From a virus: a stretch of DNA of 64,000 nt. Numbering within the stretch: the first letter of the stretch is position 1; every line of letters starts with the position of its first letter. The stretch lies in IMG/VR virus record IMGVR_UViG_3300030419_007131, positions 1 through 64,000 of that record. One strand, 5' to 3'. Of this stretch, positions 1,316 through 24,772 are shown one piece after another. A model generated the notes under the pieces. That model worked only from the letters and a program-made list of their open reading frames with translations. It was not told the DNA's origin and ran no database searches. A program made the position numbers and the translations under genes.

Positions 1316-4300
1316 TTATCCTAACAATCTTAAGTTTCTTCTAATCGATCTAGTTGAAAAACCCCATGCAGGATCGAAATCTAATTTACCCATATAGGGA
1401 CGATTCAAATGAATGCGATCTTTCCCTTCTACTATACCCCAACATCTAAACTTTGTCAACACTGAATTAGAATCAATTACTGCAACGATCCAATATGGTT
1501 TTCCATTCTTTGTCTTCTTTCTTATAATCTCTCGTGGAATAAACCACACCAATCCCAACTCCGGGTCATAGTCCGATATGGGAGGCACATAATAACTCTC
1601 CAGTTTGCTTCTCACGTCGTCGGTCATCACCAGATGCATCGGGAAGATGCCGGTGAGCGTCGTCTTGTTATCAATCTCTTCCTCGGTCGTAAAGTCGCCT
1701 TCGTCTTTATACTCCTCGATGTTTTCCAGAAACTTCTTCTTGCTATACACGCGATCGACTGCGACCGCAGACCAGAAGTGCTTGCGTCCCGTAAACCGTT
1801 CGTCCATTAGATTGTTTAGCGCCCCTGACCGAACGAGTACATCCAGCGCTTTCTTGTTCAGCTTGCTGTAGACGATATCGTCGTGGAACAGAAACTCCTC
1901 AATATTATTGAACGGCCTGTTCGCGACAATTTGTTCGATAGCTGCGTCTCCCAATCCCTTAAGTCCTGCGAGGGGCTGAACCAAGCGCTTCGGGTTGTCG
2001 GGATCAATCTCCCACACGAACGAGGAGGTGTTGATGTCTGCCTCCACAATCTCAAAGCCGTTCGACTTCGCGATGTTGATTGCCTTCTCCTTGCGCTTCT
2101 CGGGCTCCTTGTCGAGGAACGATGCCATCCACTCTACTGGGTAGTAGTTGTATAGCCACGCGCATTGGAACGAGATCGCCGAGTATGAGATAGCATGTGA
2201 CTTGTTGAAACCATAGCCCGAGAAGTATTCAAACCTCTCCCACATATCGTCGGCGGTGCCATGACCAATTCCCTTGGATACGCATCCATCAATGAACTTC
2301 TGCTTGAGGCGATTCTTAACGCGAGCTTCTTTGCCCGTGCCCTTCTTGGTCAACACCTTCCGAAGCATGTTGCCCTCGTCTAGCGTAAGGTCTTTGCCGA
2401 GCCTGTGTGCAAGCAGCGCGATCTGCTCTTGGAAGATAAGGAACCCATAGGTCTCTTGGGTTACATCCTTTACGTGCTCATTGATGTAATCAATTTCTCC
2501 GGGATGTGTCTTGGCTTGGATGTATTGCTCGTGCACGTTGGCGGATAGTGGACCTGGGCGATAGATCGAAGTGATGGCCGAGATATCAACTAGTGACTTC
2601 GGCTTTGCGTTCGCGCAGAATTCCTGTGCCCGCTGTTCCGTAAACTGAAAAATACCGGCGAAGTTGGCGCGGTGAAAAATGTTTCTATACACGGCTTGAT
2701 CATCAAAGTCGAGAACATCTGGATGAAGATTCTTATCATAGAACTCTTTCACATCCTCAAATGTCGGATCCGCATTATTATGATGTCTTTTTAAGATATG
2801 CCTAATCGCGCCTTCAATCATCCGGAGGGTTGACAGTCCCAACAAGTCAAACTTGATGAACCCGAGTGGCTCCAAGTGTCGAACGTTCTGCCCCTCCGAC
2901 CAAGGCGACTGTCGAACACCACCCGAACTAATGATCGGCATGTGCTCGTTCAAGTCATCCGCAATCAACACGCCCCCCGCATGACGGGAGCAGGACCGAA
3001 CCTGTCCGACCAGCGCCTCAACGTGCGTCTTGATGTGCGGATACTTTACTAGGAAGCCGCGCAGGGAAGGTGACAATTCCATCACCTCTTCCCAAGTCGG
3101 AGTATAAACTCCAGCCTTGATCCCGTGCTTTGCTTTGGCTGCCGGAGTAGCCTCGAAAATCATACTGGAGGTTACCTTGTTGACTTCAGTAAACTCGATT
3201 CCGTAAAACTTTGAAATGTCCTTGATGAGAGACTTCAACTGCAGAGTGTTCCAGTTTGAAATCGGAACAACTGAGTTCTTGCCCCAGTCTTCCATGAGCA
3301 TCTCCTTGAGTTCCATTGGCTCTGCAACATCATAATCAATATCTGGATAGTCTGTTGCATCCTTGCGCAAGAATCTCTCAAAGAGGAGTCCATACTTGAT
3401 GGGATCAATCTGAGTGATGCCCAGAACATAGGCCACCAGAGAGCCAGCCGCGGAACCACGACCAGGACCAGTCAACTGCACTTGGTTTGCCTTATCAGAG
3501 ATCGCCTTCATGGTCAAGAAGTATTTGCTAAATCCTCGGTCCTCGATAACATCAAGCTCCATCTGCAATCGGTCAGTGTATTCCTTATTATCGTGGAGGC
3601 CGCGTTGGCGCAACCCCTCCAAGGCATAGTTTACCAAAGCCTCGGCGTCGGTGAATCCTGCCGGGACCACGAAGTCTGGAAGTTTGACTGTGGTGTCAGG
3701 CACAAAGTCTTCAATTCTATTGAAAGCAATGTTGTGTGTCTCGGTGATCGAATCCATAACCAGCTGGTCATCATACTCAAAGCCACCGGTCTTGGAATAA
3801 TACTTATAGGCGTCCCACATCTGGTTGCCATTCTTGGGATACAGCTCGTACCCTATCTCTTCAACACCGTCAGGCAGTTCTGTATTGTCCTCCGCCCATG
3901 CTGGCGTTCCTTTGCCAAGCCAGCCGAGGCGCTTGTACAGTTCTCGGTCCTTCCAGGCTTCGTTGTTTGGATAATGACTGTCCGCTGTCGAGATAAGAGT
4001 AATGTCAAACTCTTTAGAGGTTTCGATAATGTACTGATTCAATTCATGCTGCTCTGGAATATTGTTCCACTGGAGTTCTCCGTACCAGCGATCCCCAAAG
4101 ATCTTTACAAACTGACGACTGGTTTCCCTCATCGCCTCGCGCACTGCTTCGGGGCCTTCCTCGCGGTTAGCCCAATAGTTCCCGGCGTACGGACCCCCTA
4201 GACAAGCAGAGGATGCGATAACCCCCTCTGAGTATTTGTCGAGCAGTTTGTAGTCCACGCGAGGATAGCGATAGAAGTTCTCTTCCTTATATGATTCGGA

Positions 4301-4756
4301 GATGAGCTTGAACAGGTTGTTCAGACCCGTTTGATTCTGCGCCAGGAGCACAAGGTGGCGGCGGCGGTTGAGAATGTTCTTTACGGCCTTCTTCGAGGCC
4401 TCTTCGTCCTCAACCGTTGCGCCGGAAGTATCTCCCTCTTTTGCCAATGACTTCGCTAGCTTAGCGTCTTCCTTAATGCGGTTGTAGTCATCGCGCCACT
4501 CATCAATGGAGGGCAAGAAGTATGCCTCTACTCCAAAGATAGGTTTAAATTCCTTTCCTTCGGACTTCATCTTCTGCCAGTGTAAAAACTGGTGCGAGAA
4601 CCCATTCATGTTCCCATGGTCTGTGAGAGCAAGTGCTTCGCCCCCGTTCTCATAGCAAAAATCCATGTGCTCATCTGGATATCCGATGGCATCAAAAATA
4701 GAGCCTGCGACGCTATGTGCATGCAGGCCCACGAAAGGAATCTTTTTCTCTGTCAT
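1316..4756 (-). CDS. dnaE: DNA polymerase III alpha subunit (C-family DnaE type)
   Basis: Full-length 1146-residue replicative polymerase, close to bacterial DnaE (about 1160). The N-terminal PHP domain has HAHS (about 12-15) and LTDHGNMNG (about 44-52), which keeps metal-ligand residues lost in E. coli DnaE. The catalytic palm shows GPGRGSAAGSLVAYVLG (about 430), the paired acidic residues in PDIDYDV (about 470) and the third Asp in FDLLGLSTL (about 634). Further marks are YRPGPLS, QEQIALLAHRLG, GYGFNKSHAISYS and a helix-hairpin-helix near AGLKGLGDAAIEQI. No intein is visible. The family extends primers at replication forks. No separate proofreading exonuclease gene is seen in this window. 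A sigma70-like promoter lies at 4826-4854 inside the preceding gene. Confidence 0.96.
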   Translation of the reverse strand: MTEKKIPFVGLHAHSVAGSIFDAIGYPDEHMDFCYENGGEALALTDHGNMNGFSHQFLHWQKMKSEGKEFKPIFGVEAYFLPSIDEWRDDYNRIKEDAKLAKSLAKEGDTSGATVEDEEASKKAVKNILNRRRHLVLLAQNQTGLNNLFKLISESYKEENFYRYPRVDYKLLDKYSEGVIASSACLGGPYAGNYWANREEGPEAVREAMRETSRQFVKIFGDRWYGELQWNNIPEQHELNQYIIETSKEFDITLISTADSHYPNNEAWKDRELYKRLGWLGKGTPAWAEDNTELPDGVEEIGYELYPKNGNQMWDAYKYYSKTGGFEYDDQLVMDSITETHNIAFNRIEDFVPDTTVKLPDFVVPAGFTDAEALVNYALEGLRQRGLHDNKEYTDRLQMELDVIEDRGFSKYFLTMKAISDKANQVQLTGPGRGSAAGSLVAYVLGITQIDPIKYGLLFERFLRKDATDYPDIDYDVAEPMELKEMLMEDWGKNSVVPISNWNTLQLKSLIKDISKFYGIEFTEVNKVTSSMIFEATPAAKAKHGIKAGVYTPTWEEVMELSPSLRGFLVKYPHIKTHVEALVGQVRSCSRHAGGVLIADDLNEHMPIISSGGVRQSPWSEGQNVRHLEPLGFIKFDLLGLSTLRMIEGAIRHILKRHHNNADPTFEDVKEFYDKNLHPDVLDFDDQAVYRNIFHRANFAGIFQFTEQRAQEFCANAKPKSLVDISAITSIYRPGPLSANVHEQYIQAKTHPGEIDYINEHVKDVTQETYGFLIFQEQIALLAHRLGKDLTLDEGNMLRKVLTKKGTGKEARVKNRLKQKFIDGCVSKGIGHGTADDMWERFEYFSGYGFNKSHAISYSAISFQCAWLYNYYPVEWMASFLDKEPEKRKEKAINIAKSNGFEIVEADINTSSFVWEIDPDNPKRLVQPLAGLKGLGDAAIEQIVANRPFNNIEEFLFHDDIVYSKLNKKALDVLVRSGALNNLMDERFTGRKHFWSAVAVDRVYSKKKFLENIEEYKDEGDFTTEEEIDNKTTLTGIFPMHLVMTDDVRSKLESYYVPPISDYDPELGLVWFIPREIIRKKTKNGKPYWIVAVIDSNSVLTKFRCWGIVEGKDRIHLNRPYMGKLDFDPAWGFSTRSIRRNLRLLG
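1431..1459 (-). promoter_or_regulatory. Sigma70-like promoter for the basic protein/dut/IMPDH run
   Basis: In sense: TTGACA, 17 bp, TATAGT, inside the end of dnaE and about 125 bp before the ATG at 1307. Confidence 0.5.
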
Positions 4757-12395: not shown

Positions 12396-13353
12396 GCACA
12401 ATCCGATTCATTGTGGCATGCAGATCGTCCCAGTTAAACACTCCAAAACCATCCTGATTCATCATCCGAATAACCTCGGTTTTATTATAGTCATATTCAA
12501 AATTTTCCAAGGCATAGTGCACTTTATCGCGACACTGCAAAGATAGCGCAGGAGCATAAAGCTGCATCAGTTTGTAGTTCTCTATAATTACATCTCTGTG
12601 GTCCAAAACGTTCGTGAAAAACTTAGCTTTGGACTCCGTTTGCAAACAGAAATCAAAAATCTCCTGCAAAGTCACATCCTTATCTTCTCTAAGAAATTTT
12701 AAGTTTTTTGAAATACTTTTTAAGCCAGCTCGTGGGACGCCCTTAAGGTTGTCTGAGGGGTCTCCTGCGATGGCGCGTGCCATGGCGAAGTTTCGGGGAT
12801 GGATATCAAAATCCTCCACTATATTCAACTTGGTGTGCACTTTCTTTTGAATGGGTCGAAACAAAACCGTTTCATTATCGCATAGTTGGATGAAATCCTT
12901 GTCGCTAGAGACGATGACCTTCTCCCAGCCCCTGAAATGATCCAGTTGGGTGGCGTAAGCGATGACGTCGTCGGCTTCCACCTCGTCAAAACGGAGTTGA
13001 ATCACTGGCAACTCATTCAAGTATTCCATCAGACGCAATTGCTGCCACGCCATGTTGGCTTGTTGTTGTTCCTGGGTCAAGTCGGTCTGTCGATTGACGC
13101 GAATAGGCTTGCGACCTTCTTTATAGTTCTTGTTCTGCTCTCGCCTCTTGCGACTCCCACCAGGACCGTCCCAGACAATCATCACAGTGTCTGGCTTAAT
13201 GTCACGACAAAGCTTTTGCAAGATGCCCAGGAAGCCTTTTAAACCACCGATGGGCTGTCCGTGAGTAGACAGGCTTGGGTTGACGATAAACGCCCTGAAA
13301 TAGGCGTTGAGGGCGTCAACGATCATTACTCTTTTCATGCTGCTGTCCACCAT
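12373..13353 (-). CDS. 5'-3' exonuclease (Pol I N-domain / FEN family, T4 RNase H-like)
   Basis: 326 residues from the ATG at 13353, which has GGAGG 8 bp ahead; an upstream in-frame extension overlaps the repair gene and lacks support. Motifs are MIVDALNAYFRAF (metal-binding Asp), IVWDGPGGSRKRREQNKNYK, EVEADDVIAYAT, VIVSSDKDFIQL, and the helix-hairpin-helix region IAGDPSDNLKGVPRAGLKS. These proteins remove RNA primers and flaps. With the separate short family-A polymerase at 18902 this makes a split Pol I. The gene overlaps the glycosylase-like gene by 19 bp. Confidence 0.92.
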   Translation of the reverse strand: MVDSSMKRVMIVDALNAYFRAFIVNPSLSTHGQPIGGLKGFLGILQKLCRDIKPDTVMIVWDGPGGSRKRREQNKNYKEGRKPIRVNRQTDLTQEQQQANMAWQQLRLMEYLNELPVIQLRFDEVEADDVIAYATQLDHFRGWEKVIVSSDKDFIQLCDNETVLFRPIQKKVHTKLNIVEDFDIHPRNFAMARAIAGDPSDNLKGVPRAGLKSISKNLKFLREDKDVTLQEIFDFCLQTESKAKFFTNVLDHRDVIIENYKLMQLYAPALSLQCRDKVHYALENFEYDYNKTEVIRMMNQDGFGVFNWDDLHATMNRIVLDKALQQ

Positions 13354-13799
13354 TGTGGCACCTCCGACTTCCATGTAGCAAATTTTGCCTTCTCGCCATG
13401 GTAATAGGCACGATAGGCAGTCACAGCACAATCGTTTTTGTATTGTGGTGGCATCGCCTGCGCAAACGGTAGCAAGCCTGACTCTGGAAACTCTAATGAA
13501 AGACGCGAGCACCACTCAATGATGGTTTGGCTCTTGTGCGTCTTGCCATAGCGCCTAGTATACTCGGCACTCATGGCCAGGGCATGACTGATCAACCAGT
13601 CCCAGTTCTCTTGAGACTTACCTGCCCAGAGAGTGCAAGGATGCTTAGGATGGGTGCGTCGATACGGTGCATCGTACCCGTGGTTGTGCGCTACGGTGCA
13701 CAGCATCTGAGCGCTTTCTAAAATCATTTTAACAACGTGCTTGTCGCAGAGCATCTGCGCAGCAACGTCGGGTTGTTCGTGTAAAACGAATATGTTCAT
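13335..13799 (-). CDS. Pyrimidine-dimer DNA glycosylase-like phage protein
   Basis: 154 residues. The start MNIFVLHEQPDVAAQMLCDK and following HVVKMILESAQMLC, THPKHPCTLWAGKSQENW and YTRRYGKTHKS match a widespread phage family generally annotated as DenV-like pyrimidine-dimer excision proteins. T4 DenV incises UV-damaged DNA with an N-terminal catalytic Thr; here residue 2 is Asn, so activity is not certain. A textbook sigma70 promoter (13830-13858) lies upstream and should drive this gene and the nuclease behind it. Confidence 0.6.
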   Translation of the reverse strand: MNIFVLHEQPDVAAQMLCDKHVVKMILESAQMLCTVAHNHGYDAPYRRTHPKHPCTLWAGKSQENWDWLISHALAMSAEYTRRYGKTHKSQTIIEWCSRLSLEFPESGLLPFAQAMPPQYKNDCAVTAYRAYYHGEKAKFATWKSEVPQWWTAA

Positions 13800-16717: not shown

Positions 16718-17491
16718 TTAGAGAGCGCCAAGCTCTGCGAAAGCGGCATCGACAGCGTTAGCTTCGCCGTCCGTCTTGTTGCCATACTTCGTAGTCTCGC
16801 TGCTAACAGTCTCAGGGTCATCGACCTGAGCATTAACAAACGTATCCAGAATCGTCTGCACATCAGCAGTCGTCTTTCGCTCGAATAGACCGGAGAATTC
16901 CGGAATGCTATCGAGAAGCTCAGCACACTTGTCGGGGGTCAAGTCCTCGCAGAGCGGGGAGGACCGGCGACGAGGCACCAGCTTCGTCTGGGGGAAGGAA
17001 GCCCCTGGCGGCTTCCCGTAGGTCATAGTGAGATCCGTGCCAGTCTCGGTGTCGGTGATGTCACCATACTCTGGATTGAGCACGAGAGTGAGCAGGTTCT
17101 CATAGGCAGTCTTGCCGTAACCCCATACACGCACGCCCTTCTCTTCTTCTCCCCGAACCATCACGGGGCTGAAGAAACGTTGGCGCACAAAAAGAGACTT
17201 TGCGGTCTTCTTACTGTGTTCGTCGTTATTGTCGACGCCCTCACGCCAAAGCTGTGAGGCGAACTCACACACGGGACACTCGTCACCGTAGTTGCGCTTA
17301 GGACACAAGAAGCCACCCTTCTCGACATTGTAGTGAAACCACATCTCCTTGAAGGGGTCCCCGTCAGCGGTGGGAACGATCCGAATATCCTGGTCGCCAT
17401 CTTCCGGACGCCAGAAAGTGTCATTTGAGGAGTTTCCGTCTCCACGTAGTGACGAGAGCTTTTCTCTCATCTTCTCTAAATTGATACCCAT
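16718..17491 (-). CDS. Single-stranded DNA-binding protein, T4 gp32-like
   Basis: 257 residues. The N-terminus MGINLEKMREKLSSLRG matches the gp32 self-interaction region, followed by DTFWRPEDGDQDIRIVPTAD and the zinc segment HYNVEKGGFLCP...ECPVC (about 73-97), where His and Cys ligands fit gp32. SLFVRQRFFSPV and VRVWGYGKTAYENL belong to the OB-fold. The C-terminus is acidic and ends VDAAFAELGAL. gp32 coats ssDNA at the fork and recruits helicase, polymerase and recombinase. It follows the tubulin-like gene and precedes the histone-like gene. Confidence 0.88.
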   Translation of the reverse strand: MGINLEKMREKLSSLRGDGNSSNDTFWRPEDGDQDIRIVPTADGDPFKEMWFHYNVEKGGFLCPKRNYGDECPVCEFASQLWREGVDNNDEHSKKTAKSLFVRQRFFSPVMVRGEEEKGVRVWGYGKTAYENLLTLVLNPEYGDITDTETGTDLTMTYGKPPGASFPQTKLVPRRRSSPLCEDLTPDKCAELLDSIPEFSGLFERKTTADVQTILDTFVNAQVDDPETVSSETTKYGNKTDGEANAVDAAFAELGAL

Positions 17492-17521: not shown

Positions 17522-18379
17522 TCAGCTAATATCCTGATCGTCTAGTAAATCTGTATACGATTGTACCACAGATGAATATTTCATGCAATAACAATATTTT
17601 TGTTCATATGTGGTCTTGAACACTCCGTATGAAACATTAATGTTTTCTTCTATTTTTGATTTCACGAAATCATTAATCTTTCTGAAGAGTGTCCCGTCGT
17701 TCTTTAGGTCTTCTTCGTTGATACCATAATAGTATACCACTTCCCGAGGCATTGTCAAGCTATAAAACCATTTTTCTCGGGCGTCGTTGTCATCAAGGTC
17801 TACGATGCCTACCGTAGCAATTCGACTTAAAGGCGACGGCTCTACAAAGCTGCCAATCACAGGCTCTGTATTCCTGAACACATTTAACATATGAATGGTA
17901 TTCACGATCGCCTGGTTGAGGGTCTCATAGTATCCGATAATAGAAATTTCCCCGATGCTGCGCTCCAGCGATGCATTATCAATCAACCATATAGCCTCCA
18001 ACAAACCAGACCGTGCATACTCTTGCAACACATTTCGAACAATCTTCTCTTGAGTCTGTTGAACCTCGCTGGCCAACTCTAAATCAGGCTGTATATAAAC
18101 TACAGTAATTCTATTGTTTTGAATTTGCTGGAGGAGCCGGAGAATCCCCCCAGATATTTGGCCGCTTCCTGCTAAGACCACGTACACCTCTTCGTTAGAA
18201 AACTTAAGCTTGCGTTTAAGGTTAGGAAAGTGCGCGTCATAGTCTTCGTGGTTTTTCCTTTTCTTGATGGTGATGTCGGCCTCTTTAACCGTATCAATCG
18301 CATACGTCTCATATTGAGGGAACTTAGAAAACCCCTTCGCAACTGCGGCGCCTGCTTTGCCGAGACCCACCACTATCAT
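17522..18379 (-). CDS. Tubulin/FtsZ-superfamily-like protein
   Basis: 285 residues. The start MIVVGLGKAGAAVAKGF followed by TYAIDT looks like the first strand, glycine loop and second strand of FtsZ. VYVVLAGSGQISGG near 61-75 has the position and shape of the tubulin signature (GGGTGTG loop T4), and ITVVYIQPDLEL...LEAIWLIDNASL matches the strand-helix-strand that follows in FtsZ (VAVVTKPF...LITIPNDKL). The T7 catalytic NxD cannot be found (GSFVEPSPLSRI instead), so GTP hydrolysis may be weak or lost. At 285 residues it is shorter than PhuZ and FtsZ. A DNA- or virion-positioning filament is inferred. Alternative: a Rossmann-like nucleotide-binding protein. It overlaps the MazG-like gene by 4 bp. 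Confidence 0.6.
   Translation of the reverse strand: MIVVGLGKAGAAVAKGFSKFPQYETYAIDTVKEADITIKKRKNHEDYDAHFPNLKRKLKFSNEEVYVVLAGSGQISGGILRLLQQIQNNRITVVYIQPDLELASEVQQTQEKIVRNVLQEYARSGLLEAIWLIDNASLERSIGEISIIGYYETLNQAIVNTIHMLNVFRNTEPVIGSFVEPSPLSRIATVGIVDLDDNDAREKWFYSLTMPREVVYYYGINEEDLKNDGTLFRKINDFVKSKIEENINVSYGVFKTTYEQKYCYCMKYSSVVQSYTDLLDDQDIS
17731..17758 (-). promoter_or_regulatory. Sigma70-like promoter inside the tubulin-like gene
   Basis: In sense: TTGACA, 16 bp, TATACT, about 240 bp before the gp32-like gene. It could serve that gene or be a coding coincidence. Confidence 0.4.
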
Positions 18380-18696
18380 TCTTCAACCCACTCCAATAGA
18401 TACCCCATGTTAAAGCTTCCGCGGGTCACTCGCTTAGATATCTGAGCCGCCCTAATGGCAGACTCCCCCAAAGCAAGTCGTGTACACAAAAAGTCCAGGA
18501 CTTCACGGATATCTGCCGCCTCTTCGACACAGGGATTTTCAACAAATTCCTGTACCTCTTCGCGTAGCTTCTTCAGTGCAAAACGCGTGAGGTCCTCACC
18601 TCGAAGCTGTTTTACGCCGAAGTCTTTGCCGGCGTCCGTGATGATCTCTGGAACTCGATCGCGCACAAGCTTGTGATATAGCTTCTTCTTTTTCAT
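18376..18696 (-). CDS. MazG-like / phosphoribosyl-ATP pyrophosphohydrolase-like enzyme
   Basis: 106 residues. KLVRDRVPEIITDAGKDF, LKKLREEVQEFVENP and EEAADIREVLDFL reproduce the all-alpha NTP pyrophosphohydrolase pattern: the KLVRDKIPEII start, EEVxEF and ExxDxxEV metal ligands. GSFNMGYLLE matches the family C-terminus. Such enzymes hydrolyse NTPs or dNTPs, or lower (p)ppGpp as proposed for phage MazG. Tight 4-bp overlaps occur on both sides. Confidence 0.8.
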   Translation of the reverse strand: MKKKKLYHKLVRDRVPEIITDAGKDFGVKQLRGEDLTRFALKKLREEVQEFVENPCVEEAADIREVLDFLCTRLALGESAIRAAQISKRVTRGSFNMGYLLEWVEE

Positions 18697-18905
18697 CCTT
18701 GAAACTCTTCTTCCTGGTCAACCAAACATTCAAAAATATCCGCCACCGTGAGTTCGGTATAATCGCACCCACATTTCTCAGCACACTCTTCAAATATCTC
18801 AATAAGTTGTAGCCTCATAAATCCTGCGACACCGTCGACTTTTCGTACGCCATTAACAAAATGACTGTGTCTTGGAGGGCTGATCTCGATTACATTATCT
18901 CTCAT
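18693..18905 (-). CDS. Small protein of unknown function (70 aa)
   Basis: Begins MRDNVIEISPPRHSHFVNG; the second half is acidic and helical with two close Cys (ECAEKCGCDYTELTVADIFE). It is not recognised. It overlaps polA by 4 bp upstream and the MazG-like gene by 4 bp downstream, so it is a true operon member. A strong sigma70-like promoter (18965-18993) lies about 60 bp upstream inside polA. Confidence 0.5.
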   Translation of the reverse strand: MRDNVIEISPPRHSHFVNGVRKVDGVAGFMRLQLIEIFEECAEKCGCDYTELTVADIFECLVDQEEEFQG

Positions 18906-20089
18906 AATTTTAATTCCTTCATTTCTCCGAGGTTCCTTCCAGCGGAGACATTAACCTTAAACATATCATAACGCGTTTTCCTGAAGGTGTCAAGCAAATT
19001 TAATATTTCGTAGCGATCCTCTTCCGCGAGGTCGATATACACAGCGTCGTGAATAAGAAATGCGATGTGGCTTTTTCTCCCCTTCAAAAGCTCGTAGACT
19101 TTATAAGCCTGCTCGTGCACCATATCAATTGTGGTGCTCTGAACGATATAATTAAGAGCACGATGCTCGTCTACGTTCTCTATTATTCTACCATAATCTG
19201 TCCGGATTTTAAAGCCATCCCAGTACTTATTTCGCACCAAGTCCTTGTTATATAGGCGCTCTAAGTCCTTGTTTTCCTTACTAGAATAGAGCCATGCAAA
19301 AGTTTTGACTTTGGCTTCTTCTCGGCTAAGAGTGCCATCGAAAACGTTCTTCACATTCCAATCATGAATGTCGTTCAGGGGCTGGTCCACTCCGGCTAAC
19401 GCCAGAAGCGTTCGGAGTTCGGCTGCATTAAAATCAAGCTCAAGCAACCAGTCATTGCGGGGCTGTACACAAGGACGAAACTCCTTGCTCATTGTCAAAA
19501 TTGGAAAACTACTAGGGTAAGCGGCTAGCCGCCCAGTAATGGTGCCCCATGGGTTATAATCACAACGATGTTTTACTGTACGGAGTGTACGATGAAAATT
19601 TTGCCCCTTCACCGAACTCAATAAGTGACTAATGGCGCCCACGTCTATGCTCAAGTGCTGCGACCGGATGTCTGATAGCATTTCGACTACGTTGTACATG
19701 AGATCATAGTTGGCTGGGCGCTCATGGGTGTCAAAAACATGCTGTGTTATCCGATTTTTGGCGTCCAGGTATTGAAATAAGAAATATTCGGGGACTGCGT
19801 CATACAAGCAGTTTTCTTCCAAGGACAGGTTCGACGTTTTGAAGGCTTTCAGGCACGCTCTCAGCCTGTTTTTAATCTCATCCCACTCCTGCTTCATCTC
19901 TTCCGGACAAACGTCTGTCAAGGACGCTCCGTGCGTGTAAATCCGAGCAATCTCATATGATGCTCCTTGTAGGTGAGGCGTATAGTCCCACGTCTCGCCG
20001 GTGAGGGGCGGGAGACTTCCGGCCTTAATAAAATTATTAGCGTAATAACCCGCACAATCTGTGTTGGCGTCTAAAACCTGAAAAAGCAA
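18902..20089 (-). CDS. polA: Short family-A DNA polymerase (polymerase domain only)
   Basis: 395 residues, about the size of a Pol I polymerase domain without 5'- or 3'-exonuclease. GTITGRLAAYP near 185 is the family-A TGRL segment. Motif A is LLELDFNAAELRTLLALAG near 215-233, with catalytic Asp and conserved Glu. Motif B is seen as EEAKVKTFAWLYSS (Lys and Phe kept). Motif C is IAFLIHDAVYIDL near 340-352, with the catalytic Asp but Ala in place of the usual Glu (HDE). The 5'-nuclease partner is a separate gene at 12373. The enzyme coexists with a full DnaE, so gap filling or Okazaki maturation is likelier than fork synthesis. Confidence 0.88.
   Translation of the reverse strand: MLFQVLDANTDCAGYYANNFIKAGSLPPLTGETWDYTPHLQGASYEIARIYTHGASLTDVCPEEMKQEWDEIKNRLRACLKAFKTSNLSLEENCLYDAVPEYFLFQYLDAKNRITQHVFDTHERPANYDLMYNVVEMLSDIRSQHLSIDVGAISHLLSSVKGQNFHRTLRTVKHRCDYNPWGTITGRLAAYPSSFPILTMSKEFRPCVQPRNDWLLELDFNAAELRTLLALAGVDQPLNDIHDWNVKNVFDGTLSREEAKVKTFAWLYSSKENKDLERLYNKDLVRNKYWDGFKIRTDYGRIIENVDEHRALNYIVQSTTIDMVHEQAYKVYELLKGRKSHIAFLIHDAVYIDLAEEDRYEILNLLDTFRKTRYDMFKVNVSAGRNLGEMKELKL
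18965..18993 (-). promoter_or_regulatory. Sigma70-like promoter at the end of polA
   Basis: In sense: TTGACA, 17 bp, TATGAT, about 60 bp before the 70-residue gene (start 18905). Confidence 0.55.
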
Positions 20090-20098
20090 CTAAATCCC

Positions 20099-21400
20099 CT
20101 AGTAAAGCTGTTGCGTAATCGACCCAGCTGTACTTATTTTACCCTGTCTGATCTGATTGTCAAGGTTTTTAAATACATTTTCATTAATCAGCGGATAATC
20201 AATCCCATAAATGTAGTCACGATAGATGAGATTAATATATTCTACTATATTTTCCAGACCTGTCAAGTTCTGATTTGGCCGTAGCTCATGAATGGCGCCC
20301 AAATCACTTCGAAGCTTCGTTGTAAACGCAAGGGGCTCTGCTGCTTCGACGCTGCGCAAGTTAAGATACAAGTTTGCCAGATACTTGTCCGTTAAAATGT
20401 CTTCAACATAAGAGGTAGGCGGTCGTTCGCGGTTAGACAGCTGGAACTTGTCGCATCCTGGTCTATAGATGCGCTCCTCATAAAACGGATTAAGAGTAAT
20501 ATATTGATTATAAGAATTAACTAAAAATGTTTTCAACAAAGGCAAGTCCATCATATGAGCATATTCATAATAGTGACCAAAAAAATTATCCTCATCAACA
20601 GTGGCGCCGACTTCTGTTTCATACTCCACTACATATTTCATGATTGCATCTGTAAAAAGATCCGCTGTTAAAAGCCACGGAATATTTTTATTAACCGTAA
20701 AGCCATATTTTTTCGCACATCGTACATAAAATACAAAGTTAGGATCCGTAAGGTATTTTTCATACTTCCACTCATCAACATCGAATTGACCCTGGTCTAT
20801 AGACACACAGAGCCCAGAACTAAAAATATCTATGGCACTCGAAAGCGTATAGTTGGTGAGAGTGACAGGGATCGCCGGGGCAACCTCTAGCAAATATTCC
20901 ACAAATAACTCTGTGAAGCTTCGGAAGTCTCTTATTTTGCTGCTGAAGCGCGGATAGACTTCAATAAAAGATTTATACACGAGATTCAAGTACTTCTTAT
21001 AGTGGTCTAATGAACTATTATAGCCACGCTTTGCGGCGACCTTTATCATTTTTTTGTTGCCCGCTGGGTTAGCAATCCCTATTACGTTAGCATCCGCCAT
21101 ATGAGCACTGAACGCATCGAATGCGTCCGCAACAAAGTCCAATAAATAAATATCTGGCTTGGCGGCATAGCGAGGAACCTTCAAACGATTCTGCTTAAGA
21201 CTAATGGTGTTTTGAAGTCTATCAATTTTTCCATAATATTGCTTATCGTACCAAGTATCAAGGGGAGCAACAACACCAGTAGGGTATATTTTTTCTTTGT
21301 AAAGAAGTCTTTGATAATATAAGGCCAAAGACGACAAACCATTCTTGCCCTGAGGATTGGTTAAATCCGAGGGTGTAAATTTAATAGGAGGGGCGGTCAT
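20099..21400 (-). CDS. Conserved phage structural-type protein of unknown function (433 aa)
   Basis: The last gene of the tail block. Rich in Tyr, Phe and Asn, without signal peptide or membrane helix: starts MTAPPIKFTPSDLTNPQGKN, then LALYYQRLLYKEKIYPTG and, near the end, YRDYIYGIDYPLINENVF. Proteins with this look lie at the end of baseplate operons in aquatic T4-like phages, and a baseplate role is inferred from position only. The TTAAATAG motif ends 4 bp before the ATG and no ribosome site is visible, so a leaderless message is possible. Two sigma70-like promoters for polA are buried near its end. Confidence 0.5.
   Translation of the reverse strand: MTAPPIKFTPSDLTNPQGKNGLSSLALYYQRLLYKEKIYPTGVVAPLDTWYDKQYYGKIDRLQNTISLKQNRLKVPRYAAKPDIYLLDFVADAFDAFSAHMADANVIGIANPAGNKKMIKVAAKRGYNSSLDHYKKYLNLVYKSFIEVYPRFSSKIRDFRSFTELFVEYLLEVAPAIPVTLTNYTLSSAIDIFSSGLCVSIDQGQFDVDEWKYEKYLTDPNFVFYVRCAKKYGFTVNKNIPWLLTADLFTDAIMKYVVEYETEVGATVDEDNFFGHYYEYAHMMDLPLLKTFLVNSYNQYITLNPFYEERIYRPGCDKFQLSNRERPPTSYVEDILTDKYLANLYLNLRSVEAAEPLAFTTKLRSDLGAIHELRPNQNLTGLENIVEYINLIYRDYIYGIDYPLINENVFKNLDNQIRQGKISTAGSITQQLY
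20136..20163 (-). promoter_or_regulatory. Sigma70-like promoter for polA (proximal)
   Basis: In sense: TTGACA, 16 bp, TAAAAT, about 47 bp before the polA ATG, inside the end of the tail-block gene. It marks the border of late and early regions. Confidence 0.5.
20239..20266 (-). promoter_or_regulatory. Sigma70-like promoter for polA (distal)
   Basis: In sense: TTGACA, 16 bp, TAGAAT, about 100 bp upstream of the proximal site. Confidence 0.4.
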
Positions 21401-21424: not shown

Positions 21425-24400
21425 TTATGAACTCGGGTTACTACTAGGGGAAGGCCCCAACTCAGACGGGCTACATGCGGCCTCGGAAGCCTGTGGATCA
21501 TCAGAGGCAGCAGTCGGTGTGGGGGGTGCTGCACCGTGGTGAAATTCAATACCTTCCTGGAGGGCTGTTATAGATGTGCCAAAGCTTTTTTCGGTCACCT
21601 CTGATTTAACGCCTGTCACCAAATAATACCCATGAAGCCCCAAATAGTTTAATTGCTCTTGAGAAGTATTCATCAGAAGAGGACTAACATAAATATAGGT
21701 ACCATTCTTATATAAGTTGTTGCCTACCATCTGAATCGAAACTGAGTAAAGCTCCCGCAACTGTTCGGGGCCCAGCGCGCCGGTCTTCTGGATTTTTGAC
21801 TCTCGTAAATACGGCATGTCTTCGCGCTTAAAGTTAATCGCCTTTACCAGACTGCACGCAGAACCAAGGTAGTGGTGATATATCCCCCGCTCAAGATCAT
21901 CATCAAAATCGCCTCGTAAGTTGCTGGGGTTGGTGTCAGTTGAAACTAAAATTAGTCCCATTCCTACATCAGCCAGGGCGGTTTCATCTGTCAGGGCTGC
22001 GTTGGCCAGGGCAAGACTATTAACTCCAATACATCCCTTAGATGCAGCAAGAGCTGGGGCTTGTCCTTTTTTATTAAACGACATTGGCTGAACATCAAAG
22101 CGCTGGAAGAGCCGAAGATTCTTTCCGAAACAATTCCCGCGGAGAGCGTTTGTAATAAGCTGAGATGTTAGGTCTTTAATAAAATGGAGCAAATAATAAC
22201 TATCGCGATCTTTGTCAATTACGTTCTTGACGTACCAGTTCTGAAAGGATCGAAGGGAGATCGGTATATCCCCTATATTAATGTTTTTATATAGCTGGGA
22301 GGCATCGGGTAGGTCCCCCGCGGCGGCTATCTTTTGTTGATAAAAGGCATCGCGCAAGTCACCACACTGGGCCCACTTATCAAGCTTTTGCATCGTGGCC
22401 GCAAACTGAGCATCAACAAACTGCGTTTCAGATAAAAAGAAAGCGAAATCAAGAGGCTCTCCACCGTTGTTTTCATCTATCTGAAGCAAGATGTTATCAA
22501 TCATGTCGCCCAGATACATAAAGTTGATTGGGATCAAATCATCTTTTCCTTTTTTCGCCTTCTTTTCGTCTCTTTTGGTTTGTTTGTCGTCAGCTTTGCC
22601 GGCTTTTTCTTTTTTAATTTCGTCCAGCATCTTCGATTCATACTCAGATGTCTTATTGACAACGACTTCTGTCCCAAGCTTTTCTCTCGCAAGTTCTAGG
22701 CGCTCTTCTTCTGATAACTTAGATTGTTTTTTAGCCGCTAAAAGCTCTGAAACTGGAACTTCTATATGATAAACTTTATCTGCCTCGTATAGCTTGGCTA
22801 AAAGTTTGCGATATTTAACGAGCTTGTCTGTTTCTTCGAGTTCTTTTATTTCTTCTAAAAGCTCATCGATTTCGTCCTCATATTTTTCTGGCTGGTCCGC
22901 CTTTTTACGGTCTGCGTCTTCGGCCTTAAAGGTGTCTAACTTCTTCCGCTTGGCTTCAATAGTATTCTCGTTCTCCCCGGGCGCGAAGATATTGGAGTTG
23001 GGCGCTGTTAGGATTCCGGTCAGGCTGGCCTGATAATTAACTGTCAACTGAAGACTCCCGTTTTGTTTGAAGTCAATATCGTGGCGCGTTTGTTGTAAAA
23101 ATAAGGTAACACGGGTTGCTTTAATGGCTTCTTGGAGGGCCTGGGCACGAGTCATGGTGTCGTCGTGCGGAGAGTCCGCCGCAAGATCAGGATAAATTTT
23201 CTCTAAGTTCGGCGGAGTGGCCCAGCCTGCGACAACTTTAATCCGAAAGTTGGCGCCATCATACTGACGACTTTTAACATTCTTACAATCTTTCTTGGGC
23301 TTGGATGAAGGGCTTGAGGCCTTTTTCTTTTTTCTAATGCTGGGGGAATTAATAATAAGGTCCAAGAAATTTGGCTTCGCCTTTCCAGCATCAGGGTGAG
23401 GAGTCCTGTATACATCGCCTGCTTGGGAAGCCCCCTGAAAGAAGTCCCCCACTGATTGAAACCACACTACCAGGGTAGCTGTTATGTTGTTATCAACTTC
23501 TGCAGGCTGCACACCTTCGAGGGTCCAAGAAAAGCTCTTAATGCCAGCCCCAGGAATGCGCCCTTTATCGCCAGACATGATGCTTTCAACATCTTGTTGG
23601 CTTACAAAGTTAGGGATCGACAGAGGCTGCTCTTCCCCAGTAGGCTTTCCATTTTCGTCATAGTCCACACGAGAAAGTTTTATATAAGGCACAAGAAGCG
23701 CATGAATATCCGGGCACAAACTTAATATCTCTTTAACGGCTGCCGTTTGGCCGCCATGGTTTATGACACTTAAAGTATCTCCAGGGTCACCATTGGTATC
23801 AACCGTAATGAGCTTTTGGTAAGGACCTGACAGGGCCTCGTGCTGATCTTTTAATTTCATGATGCGCTCTAATAACACACATTGATAGTCAGCGGGGTCA
23901 AGGGTGATCTTTTCCTCTTCCTCTTCTTCTTTCGCCGCATCACTCTTGGCCTCTTCAGGCGATTCTTCAGGATCCGGTTCGCCCCCCTCATCGTGACTAC
24001 GAACATCATCGGCAGCTTCCGCCTCCTCCCTAAGTTCCTCGGCCTGGGCTGCCCGTTCTTCCGCGGATTTTGCCGCGTCTGAGCATGGGACTTCCGTCAC
24101 CCTGGATTCATAAATCTCGATTAAATAGTCGTCAGGAGGGTCTCCGGTGCTCCAGTTGGTAAACAGTGTTGTAAACCCCTGCAGGGTTGCACACTTGGTT
24201 TCTCCGTCATAAGGCTCGCTTTTATTAACATGCTCGGTTAGACGAGCTTTAGCCCAGAGCCGGGCTCGTTGTTGATCAATCCCGCGGGCGACGGAGCTGT
24301 TGGACATCGGCCACCCAACCTCGATTTGGTAGGTGCCGTCGCCCAGGTCTGTGATCTTATAATCCCTTGAGCCCTTTGAAAACCAGCCCGGGCCGTCTAG

Positions 24401-24772
24401 GTCCCCCGATGGCGCGACTCCTTCCCGCACGGCCATGCCGCCGTCTGTCTGAATGTAATCAGCCTGTCCGTCTCCGTCGCTGTCGATACCCGATTCGGCG
24501 GCCGTTATCTCGCTCACTGCAACTGACCATACGGCCTCAACGCGGCCCGAAGCTCTGGCGTCATCGTGGGAGGTTACGCTATCGAGGGTGGCGCCGCTTA
24601 AATTGTATGTGTTATCGGTGGTGTTATTTTTATTATTTATAAAGCCAGTGATCTCGCGCTTCGCAGCAAGTTCGAGTTGCTCCTTGAGCTCAAGATACTC
24701 ATCATACTCAACGAAATCAAGCTCGCCCGCAACGGTTGCAACATACCTGCCGCCTTGTTCAACAACAGCCAT
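21425..24772 (-). CDS. Large virion protein, probable baseplate hub component
   Basis: 1115 residues. The N-terminal half is variable, with a long charged Glu/Ala coiled-coil segment (about 230-290) and a second Lys/Glu-rich region (about 590-735). The C-terminal 350 residues look more conserved: LIPINFMYLGDMIDNIL, SIQMVGNNLYKNGTYIYVSP and LGLHGYYLVTGV resemble hub proteins of the gp27/late-control type. It follows a LysM gene, the same order as XkdP-XkdQ in PBSX-like tails, which supports a hub assignment. It ends with a Ser/Pro tail. Confidence 0.55.
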   Translation of the reverse strand: MAVVEQGGRYVATVAGELDFVEYDEYLELKEQLELAAKREITGFINNKNNTTDNTYNLSGATLDSVTSHDDARASGRVEAVWSVAVSEITAAESGIDSDGDGQADYIQTDGGMAVREGVAPSGDLDGPGWFSKGSRDYKITDLGDGTYQIEVGWPMSNSSVARGIDQQRARLWAKARLTEHVNKSEPYDGETKCATLQGFTTLFTNWSTGDPPDDYLIEIYESRVTEVPCSDAAKSAEERAAQAEELREEAEAADDVRSHDEGGEPDPEESPEEAKSDAAKEEEEEEKITLDPADYQCVLLERIMKLKDQHEALSGPYQKLITVDTNGDPGDTLSVINHGGQTAAVKEILSLCPDIHALLVPYIKLSRVDYDENGKPTGEEQPLSIPNFVSQQDVESIMSGDKGRIPGAGIKSFSWTLEGVQPAEVDNNITATLVVWFQSVGDFFQGASQAGDVYRTPHPDAGKAKPNFLDLIINSPSIRKKKKASSPSSKPKKDCKNVKSRQYDGANFRIKVVAGWATPPNLEKIYPDLAADSPHDDTMTRAQALQEAIKATRVTLFLQQTRHDIDFKQNGSLQLTVNYQASLTGILTAPNSNIFAPGENENTIEAKRKKLDTFKAEDADRKKADQPEKYEDEIDELLEEIKELEETDKLVKYRKLLAKLYEADKVYHIEVPVSELLAAKKQSKLSEEERLELAREKLGTEVVVNKTSEYESKMLDEIKKEKAGKADDKQTKRDEKKAKKGKDDLIPINFMYLGDMIDNILLQIDENNGGEPLDFAFFLSETQFVDAQFAATMQKLDKWAQCGDLRDAFYQQKIAAAGDLPDASQLYKNINIGDIPISLRSFQNWYVKNVIDKDRDSYYLLHFIKDLTSQLITNALRGNCFGKNLRLFQRFDVQPMSFNKKGQAPALAASKGCIGVNSLALANAALTDETALADVGMGLILVSTDTNPSNLRGDFDDDLERGIYHHYLGSACSLVKAINFKREDMPYLRESKIQKTGALGPEQLRELYSVSIQMVGNNLYKNGTYIYVSPLLMNTSQEQLNYLGLHGYYLVTGVKSEVTEKSFGTSITALQEGIEFHHGAAPPTPTAASDDPQASEAACSPSELGPSPSSNPSS

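Follow-up and report, generated by a model that had tools for sequence, protein, structure and literature searches.

Does an open reading frame in the replication block of an uncultured marine virus encode a relative of tubulin and FtsZ and, if so, what might such a protein do beside a single-stranded DNA-binding protein (SSB) and a DNA polymerase? We addressed this question in a window of 64,000 nucleotides, comprising positions 1 to 64,000 of the 165,065-base IMG/VR record IMGVR_UViG_3300030419_007131. An initial annotation, made from the sequence alone, had placed a tubulin/FtsZ-like protein here on the strength of several elements that follow one another in the order of the FtsZ N-domain. 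The reading frame starts with ATG and overlaps the preceding gene by 4 bases; its product is called TUB below (Table 1).

Table 1. Features of TUB and of the neighbouring genes in the window. Y224 and N228 are given in tubulin numbering; the MazG-like label rests on a motif.
Feature	Position	Strand	Basis
Tubulin-fold protein TUB, 285 aa (fold predicted)	17522..18379	(-)	ORF; AlphaFold2 model, pLDDT 84.2, pTM 0.83; Foldseek/VIA matches to FtsZ, TubZ, CetZ and tubulin
T1 loop GLGKAG, residues 5-10	18350..18367	(-)	G5 180/181, G7 180/181, G10 168/181; aligned to FtsZ T1 by hhalign
T4 loop AGSGQISGG, residues 70-78, degenerate tubulin signature	18146..18172	(-)	[SAG]GGTG[SAT]G in 0/181; G71 166/181, G73 153/181, S/T76 172/181
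Family motif LQEYARSG, residues 118-125, end of H5	18005..18028	(-)	Q119, R123 and S124 in 181/181; model helix 105-123
N135, T6 asparagine aligned with E. coli FtsZ N165	17975..17977	(-)	N135 175/181; hhalign register
Central helix H7, residues 150-169; Y151 and N155 at tubulin Y224/N228 positions	17873..17932	(-)	DSSP; N155 177/181; hhalign register
T7 equivalent EPVIGSFVEP, residues 172-181, without conserved catalytic acid	17837..17866	(-)	NxDxx[DE] in 1/181; commonest acid positions 172 (135/181) and 183 (122/181)
C-terminal domain, residues 187-269: strands 187-194, 213-221, 248-256, 262-269; helix 229-243	17573..17821	(-)	DSSP; within FtsZ/CetZ aligned range
Acidic C-terminal hexapeptide DDQDIS, residues 280-285	17525..17542	(-)	Related tail in 71/181 members; disordered in model, 281-285 pLDDT < 50
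gp32-type SSB, next gene downstream of TUB	16718..17491	(-)	Pfam gp32 8e-15; phrog_1192 8.5e-23
Small gene upstream, 4-base overlap with TUB	18376..18696	(-)	No Pfam match above cut-off; MazG-like by motif only
Small family-A DNA polymerase-like protein, 395 aa	18902..20089	(-)	Pfam DNA_pol_A 2.7e-10

Sequence comparison and predicted fold

Searches with the TUB sequence gave no significant match in PHROGs and no match in NCBIfam, in a defence library or among PDB sequences, where profiles of the family found chance matches only. In Pfam nothing exceeded the cut-off, the top sub-threshold match being the Rossmann family TrkA_N (E 4e-4, residues 2-34). The gathering cut-off of PF00091 was reached neither by TUB of the window, which gave no match, nor by the members compared with it in two sets of 15; weak matches to this model were obtained with 2 members of the first set (best E 0.086) and with 2 of the second (best E 0.12, scoring 13.1 bits where 33 are required). 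Shallow family profiles compared with FtsZ and PhuZ by hhalign aligned at most T1 and nothing beyond; against one PhuZ, the family profile gave a weak match of 29 columns at T1 (probability 0.3%, E 0.18). When 181 distinct members were compared with 15 FtsZ sequences, a single collinear match over residues 2-164 was found in this one comparison (E 6.3e-5, probability 65%), with T1, N135, Y151 and N155 in register with FtsZ. After gap-rich columns had been trimmed, the same comparison scored 26.8 and its E rose to 0.009; controls scored at most 22.4 (100 column-shuffled FtsZ alignments), 15.6 (a reversed alignment), and 18.4 and 15.3 (two unrelated phage families). The identity of TUB to FtsZ chains was 10-17%. 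At the level of sequence, the link between TUB and FtsZ is weak.

To obtain a structural model, we scanned IMG/VR and recovered 17 loci, from which 15 proteins were aligned, and TUB of the window was predicted from that alignment with AlphaFold2. The secondary structure elements of the model follow the tubulin order. All the elements named in the initial annotation are present, each at the model position required by tubulin topology: the S1/T1 strand and loop (residues 2-10), the IDT strand (24-29), S4/T4 LAGSGQISGG (69-78), S5/T5 VVYIQPDLEL (93-102) and S6/T6 AIWLIDNASL (129-138). The model also contains the core helix H7, the lack of which would have spoken against the annotation, and the C-terminal domain that the annotation had singled out as a feature to look for. 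A second prediction, for a relative with 36% identity to TUB of the window (L113), had a pLDDT of 88.0 and a pTM of 0.88.

Both models were compared with known structures. With the window model, Foldseek returned 530 PDB chains at E <= 0.001 (best E 2.4e-12), and the best 50 of these were all FtsZ or TubZ, nearly all of them FtsZ, with query TM-scores of 0.62-0.70. All 50 PDB matches listed for L113 were likewise FtsZ or TubZ, nearly all FtsZ. VIA-align matched the window model to CetZ 3zid (Z 23.1, rmsd 3.4, 258 residues aligned), FtsZ 2r6r (Z 22.0), and TubZ and tubulins (20-21); with L113, CetZ 3zid reached Z 24.2 (rmsd 2.9, 262 residues) and FtsZ 2r6r 22.8. The PDB matches span residues 1-280 of TUB and thereby include the nucleotide domain, H7 and the C-terminal domain. 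In the viral structure library BFVD, the best match was A0A6J5RW92, annotated as 'FtsZ Cell division GTPase' of an uncultured Caudovirales phage (TMq 0.74).

We are therefore highly confident, as far as predicted structures can tell, that TUB has a tubulin/FtsZ fold, and by this modelled fold the family belongs to the tubulin/FtsZ superfamily, with a Rossmann-like N-terminal GTPase domain, H7 and a C-terminal alpha/beta domain. Homology of the family to FtsZ is supported, modestly by sequence and strongly by the modelled structure. That TUB is instead an ordinary Rossmann dinucleotide-binding protein without H7, as its sub-threshold resemblance to TrkA_N might suggest, is extremely improbable, since in both models the tubulin matches run over the whole chain, with H7 and the C-terminal domain included.

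The nucleotide pocket and family-specific residues

We then followed the residues of the nucleotide pocket through the 181 distinct members of the family alignment. The T6 asparagine of FtsZ (N165), at the position of N135, is a guanine contact in FtsZ structures. Y151 aligns with the stacking aromatic residue, and N155 follows it at a distance of four residues, as N228 follows Y224 in tubulin. The predicted guanine-contact trio, N135, an aromatic residue or histidine at 151, and N155, is retained in full in 167 of the 181 members. N12, the T1 asparagine of FtsZ, is kept in only 98 members and is alanine in TUB of the window.

The T4 signature that no member carries was present in 15/15 FtsZ controls. 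Across the family, T4 has diverged to the form G-x-G-x-x-[ST]-G; the divergent members L113-L115 come nearest to the signature with GGG[RQI]TSG[AT], a plausible intermediate. Because the strict signature is lost from all 181 members, TUB could bind phosphate differently or not at all.

The initial annotation had not found the catalytic NxD of loop T7 in this one protein, and its absence proved to be a property of the family: the single member with NxDxx[DE] in the aligned region compares with 15/15 FtsZ controls. No acid at positions 169-186 is common to all 181 members. This count is the better test of T7, because the strict T4 and T7 patterns fail on PhuZ too, though PhuZ T7 retains acids. 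We aligned T7 with that of FtsZ partly by eye; hhalign, along its greedy path, puts N166-V167 opposite the N-V of FtsZ T7, contrary to the model, in which N166 lies inside H7. Lacking a T7 acid, TUB would be unable to hydrolyse nucleotide as FtsZ, tubulin and PhuZ do.

Conservation extends beyond the pocket to the LQEYARSG motif, in which E120 is found in 169/181 members, and to H163 and N166 (172/181 each). In tubulins, the T-loops lie at the ends of the parallel strands and the helices run away from them, so that the bottom end of one subunit meets the nucleotide of the next in protofilaments. By this topology, LQEYARSG and H163/N166 would form the bottom face of the nucleotide domain, and T1, T6 and the start of H7 its top. 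The gene is under purifying selection, with pN of 0.086 and pS of 0.78 against the relative L017 (284 codons compared, the stop included, one of the sequences lacking a start codon).

Gene neighbourhood and distribution of the family

A profile scan of IMG/VR found the TUB family encoded in at least 583 stretches among at least 599 matching ones. The family occurs in a large uncultured clade of marine T4-like phages and is near-universal within it. The TUB gene or its SSB was found on contigs of up to 163-194 kb. By tblastn, TUB of the window had no match at E up to 10 in 50,697 phage records. A search for hosts among genome contigs yielded no TUB relative in a first scan (25 stretches) and, in a second (23 stretches), one 32-residue match on a Mucilaginibacter chromosome, which we took as chance.

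To analyze gene order, we used a set of 163 member loci, which yielded 136 distinct proteins, 135 of them full length (the window itself, L018, and L091-L110 were excluded). The next recognised gene downstream of TUB encoded the SSB in 149 of these loci and the contig ended first in the other 14, a count of loci rather than of independent phages, several being copies of one contig (for example L111/L016 and L116/L113). Immediately upstream lay the MazG-like reading frame in 93 loci, the small polymerase in 59, another recognised gene in 2, no recognised gene in 2 and the contig end in 7. When loci were anchored on the SSB gene instead, TUB was present in 64 of the 66 with at least 1,200 bases upstream; these derive from the nearest 80 of at least 585 loci, 14 with fewer than 1,200 bases upstream having been set aside (8 still show the gene and 6 end too early). 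The SSB and polymerase neighbours named in the initial annotation were borne out, as a gp32-type SSB and a family-A polymerase-like protein.

Two SSB loci without TUB, L240 and L241, carry an 87-aa conserved reading frame before the SSB instead (1269-1532 and 968-1231, respectively), and no TUB member was found elsewhere on these contigs of 9.5 and 35 kb. Microcystis phage Mel-JY01 has an SSB with 32% identity, and a search of the whole phage found no TUB relative. Since L240, L241 and Mel-JY01 all have the SSB without TUB, the SSB does not depend on TUB in every phage.

The terminase, portal, major head protein, sheath, UvsX and gp32 of the phage, as well as its DnaB-like helicase, were assigned by PHROG or Pfam to families characteristic of T4-type phages. 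The description of the phage as T4-like holds for the first six of these proteins and not for its polymerases, which are of the PolC/DnaE and small family-A types. By terminase, the nearest isolates are Mel-JY01 and Flavobacterium immuto phages, at most 45% identical; positions 60000-100000 of a Flavobacterium immuto phage contained no TUB relative. There was no sign of a prophage or of plasmid partition.

Several other features of the phage were recorded. It encodes two unrelated DNA polymerases, the family-A palm-like protein (18902-20089), for which tblastn found no match in 50,697 phage records, and a PolC/DnaE-type enzyme (1316-4756, phrog_405). A pyrimidine dimer DNA glycosylase-like protein lies in the replication block at 13335-13796 (Pfam Pyr_excise 3.4e-7). 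Upstream of the polymerase-tubulin-SSB block are two large, fast-evolving proteins of 433 and 1115 aa (20099-21400 and 21425-24772), mostly 21-50% identical between loci, with no Pfam match above cut-off and no significant PHROG.

Possible functions and relation to known tubulins

We propose that TUB may be a minimal, divergent tubulin/FtsZ-fold protein that forms a core part of the replication module in this marine T4-like clade. It would bind a guanine nucleotide through the retained base pocket and T1 and an altered T4 that is still rich in glycine and serine, and would keep it as a structural cofactor, not as fuel. Joined head-to-tail, TUB subunits would then form stable protofilaments or short oligomers, which might, in concert with SSB and polymerase, serve as a scaffold for the phage replication site or hold it in place. 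A nucleotide-binding, hydrolysis-deficient scaffold is the likeliest of the readings considered here, although it falls slightly short of probable.

T7 mutants of PhuZ offer a precedent. In one study, PhuZ D190A still needs GTP and has an approximately 10-fold lower critical concentration, forming non-dynamic filaments (PMC4244570). In another, filaments of PhuZ-RAY D198A appear at every expression level, and the positioning of the phage nucleus is weaker than with the wild type (PMC10299810). Because a static T7 mutant performs this task worse, static TUB filaments would need another job. By analogy with these mutants, a natural T7-less tubulin encoded beside SSB and polymerase suggests a static scaffold for replication, the main rival of which is a non-polymerising adaptor.

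Such an adaptor would be a monomeric or dimeric partner of the replisome, for example of the SSB or the polymerase, with nucleotide or free of it, having kept the fold and given up polymerisation. The loss of the T4 signature from 181/181 members and of T7 from 180/181 would fit this, as would the strict linkage to SSB and polymerase genes, not to a DNA-binding partition partner, and a length below those of the matched FtsZ, TubZ and tubulin chains. Retention of the guanine-contact trio speaks against it, as do the family-invariant residues, which by tubulin topology would occupy both end faces, as longitudinal assembly would need. We consider an adaptor possible, if on the whole unlikely.

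The conserved bottom-face residues bear on a further alternative, an active GTPase with relocated catalysis, in which E120, R123, S124, H163 and N166 take over from the T7 aspartates and phage DNA is moved by dynamic filaments like those of PhuZ or TubZ. Their near or complete invariance, and the placement of the ends of H5 and H7 on the face that would meet the nucleotide of the next subunit, are what such an enzyme might show; the same invariance could serve folding or binding, and no tubulin is known to work in this way. We regard this as unlikely. We also hold to be improbable a combined version, in which the T7 aspartates were exchanged for another catalytic or switch apparatus on the bottom face (LQEYARSG with R123; H163/N166) in a core scaffold of the replication compartment of abundant non-jumbo ocean phages. 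If this doubtful version were true, TUB would add a third function to those known for phage tubulins, spindle (PhuZ) and partition (TubZ).

Several phages target FtsZ, and an FtsZ fold with a dead T7 resembles a dominant-negative subunit, so an anti-host factor that would stop division by poisoning or capping host FtsZ was also considered. A host-takeover gene does not usually lie in a replication operon or show near-universal conservation, and co-polymerisation with FtsZ would be unlikely at the low identity noted above; this alternative is very unlikely.

Phage tubulins are already known, as PhuZ of jumbo phages and TubZ of phage c-st; the TUB family appears to be neither of these, nor FtsZ. 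PhuZ (e.g. 201phi2-1 gp59) is, like TUB, a phage-encoded tubulin fold of about 300 aa. Its T4 is GGGSGS and its T7 is acidic (LDVHD), whereas both loops are degenerate in TUB. PhuZ has a long C-terminal helix and an acidic tail; TUB of the window shares an acidic tail, but no long helix follows residue 269 (275-279 in the first model and none in the second). The PhuZ phage 201phi2-1 has 316,674 bases and a nuclear shell protein, whereas TUB contigs reach about 195 kb and the TUB gene lies beside the SSB. The 201phi2-1 shell protein had no match in the whole record of the window, in a search with this one distant query that would miss a distant homologue.

TubZ, of plasmids and phage c-st, also shares the tubulin fold with TUB (Z 21-22.5), but the matched chains are about 75-130 aa longer. 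According to PMC7950403, TubZ acts with TubR and a centromere. No TubR-like neighbour of TUB was recognised among the polymerase, the SSB and small reading frames without Pfam HTH match. The kinship with PhuZ or TubZ that the initial annotation had raised was not borne out: sequence comparison showed no close relation, and the TUB models lack the long C-terminal helices that both possess.

FtsZ and CetZ are the best structural matches of TUB, and the T1, T6 and H7 base positions of FtsZ align with those of TUB, which differs from both in lacking a canonical T4 and T7 and a cell-division context. The BFVD phage tubulins A0A6J5RW92, A0A8S5UFG9 and A0A8S5USZ9 have a tubulin fold in tailed phages, as TUB does; A0A6J5RW92, compared by structure match only, is longer (452 aa) and 16% identical to TUB. 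Tubulin/FtsZ protein clusters are reported from a hot-spring virome in PMC8597652. No description of the marine TUB family was found in a search of the open-access literature. A predicted tubulin fold that seems to keep its nucleotide pocket but not the usual catalytic residues hints at a cytoskeletal or scaffold protein of phages that has not been described before. Its gene is near-universal in the marine clade and is tied to an SSB, not to a nucleus or a partition operon. Members of the family lack the canonical hydrolysis residues by nature, as the PhuZ T7 mutants do by engineering, and allow us to ask what a tubulin gains from binding nucleotide alone.

Searches of viral contigs with known tubulins as queries gave no match for E. 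coli FtsZ and, for PhuZ, its own genome only. Many of the INPHARED phage records H63-H88 contain an ordinary ftsZ, probably from bacterial contamination. On the Marinomonas algicola plasmid NZ_CP061942.1, a gene called a hypothetical protein is 34% identical to E. coli FtsZ.
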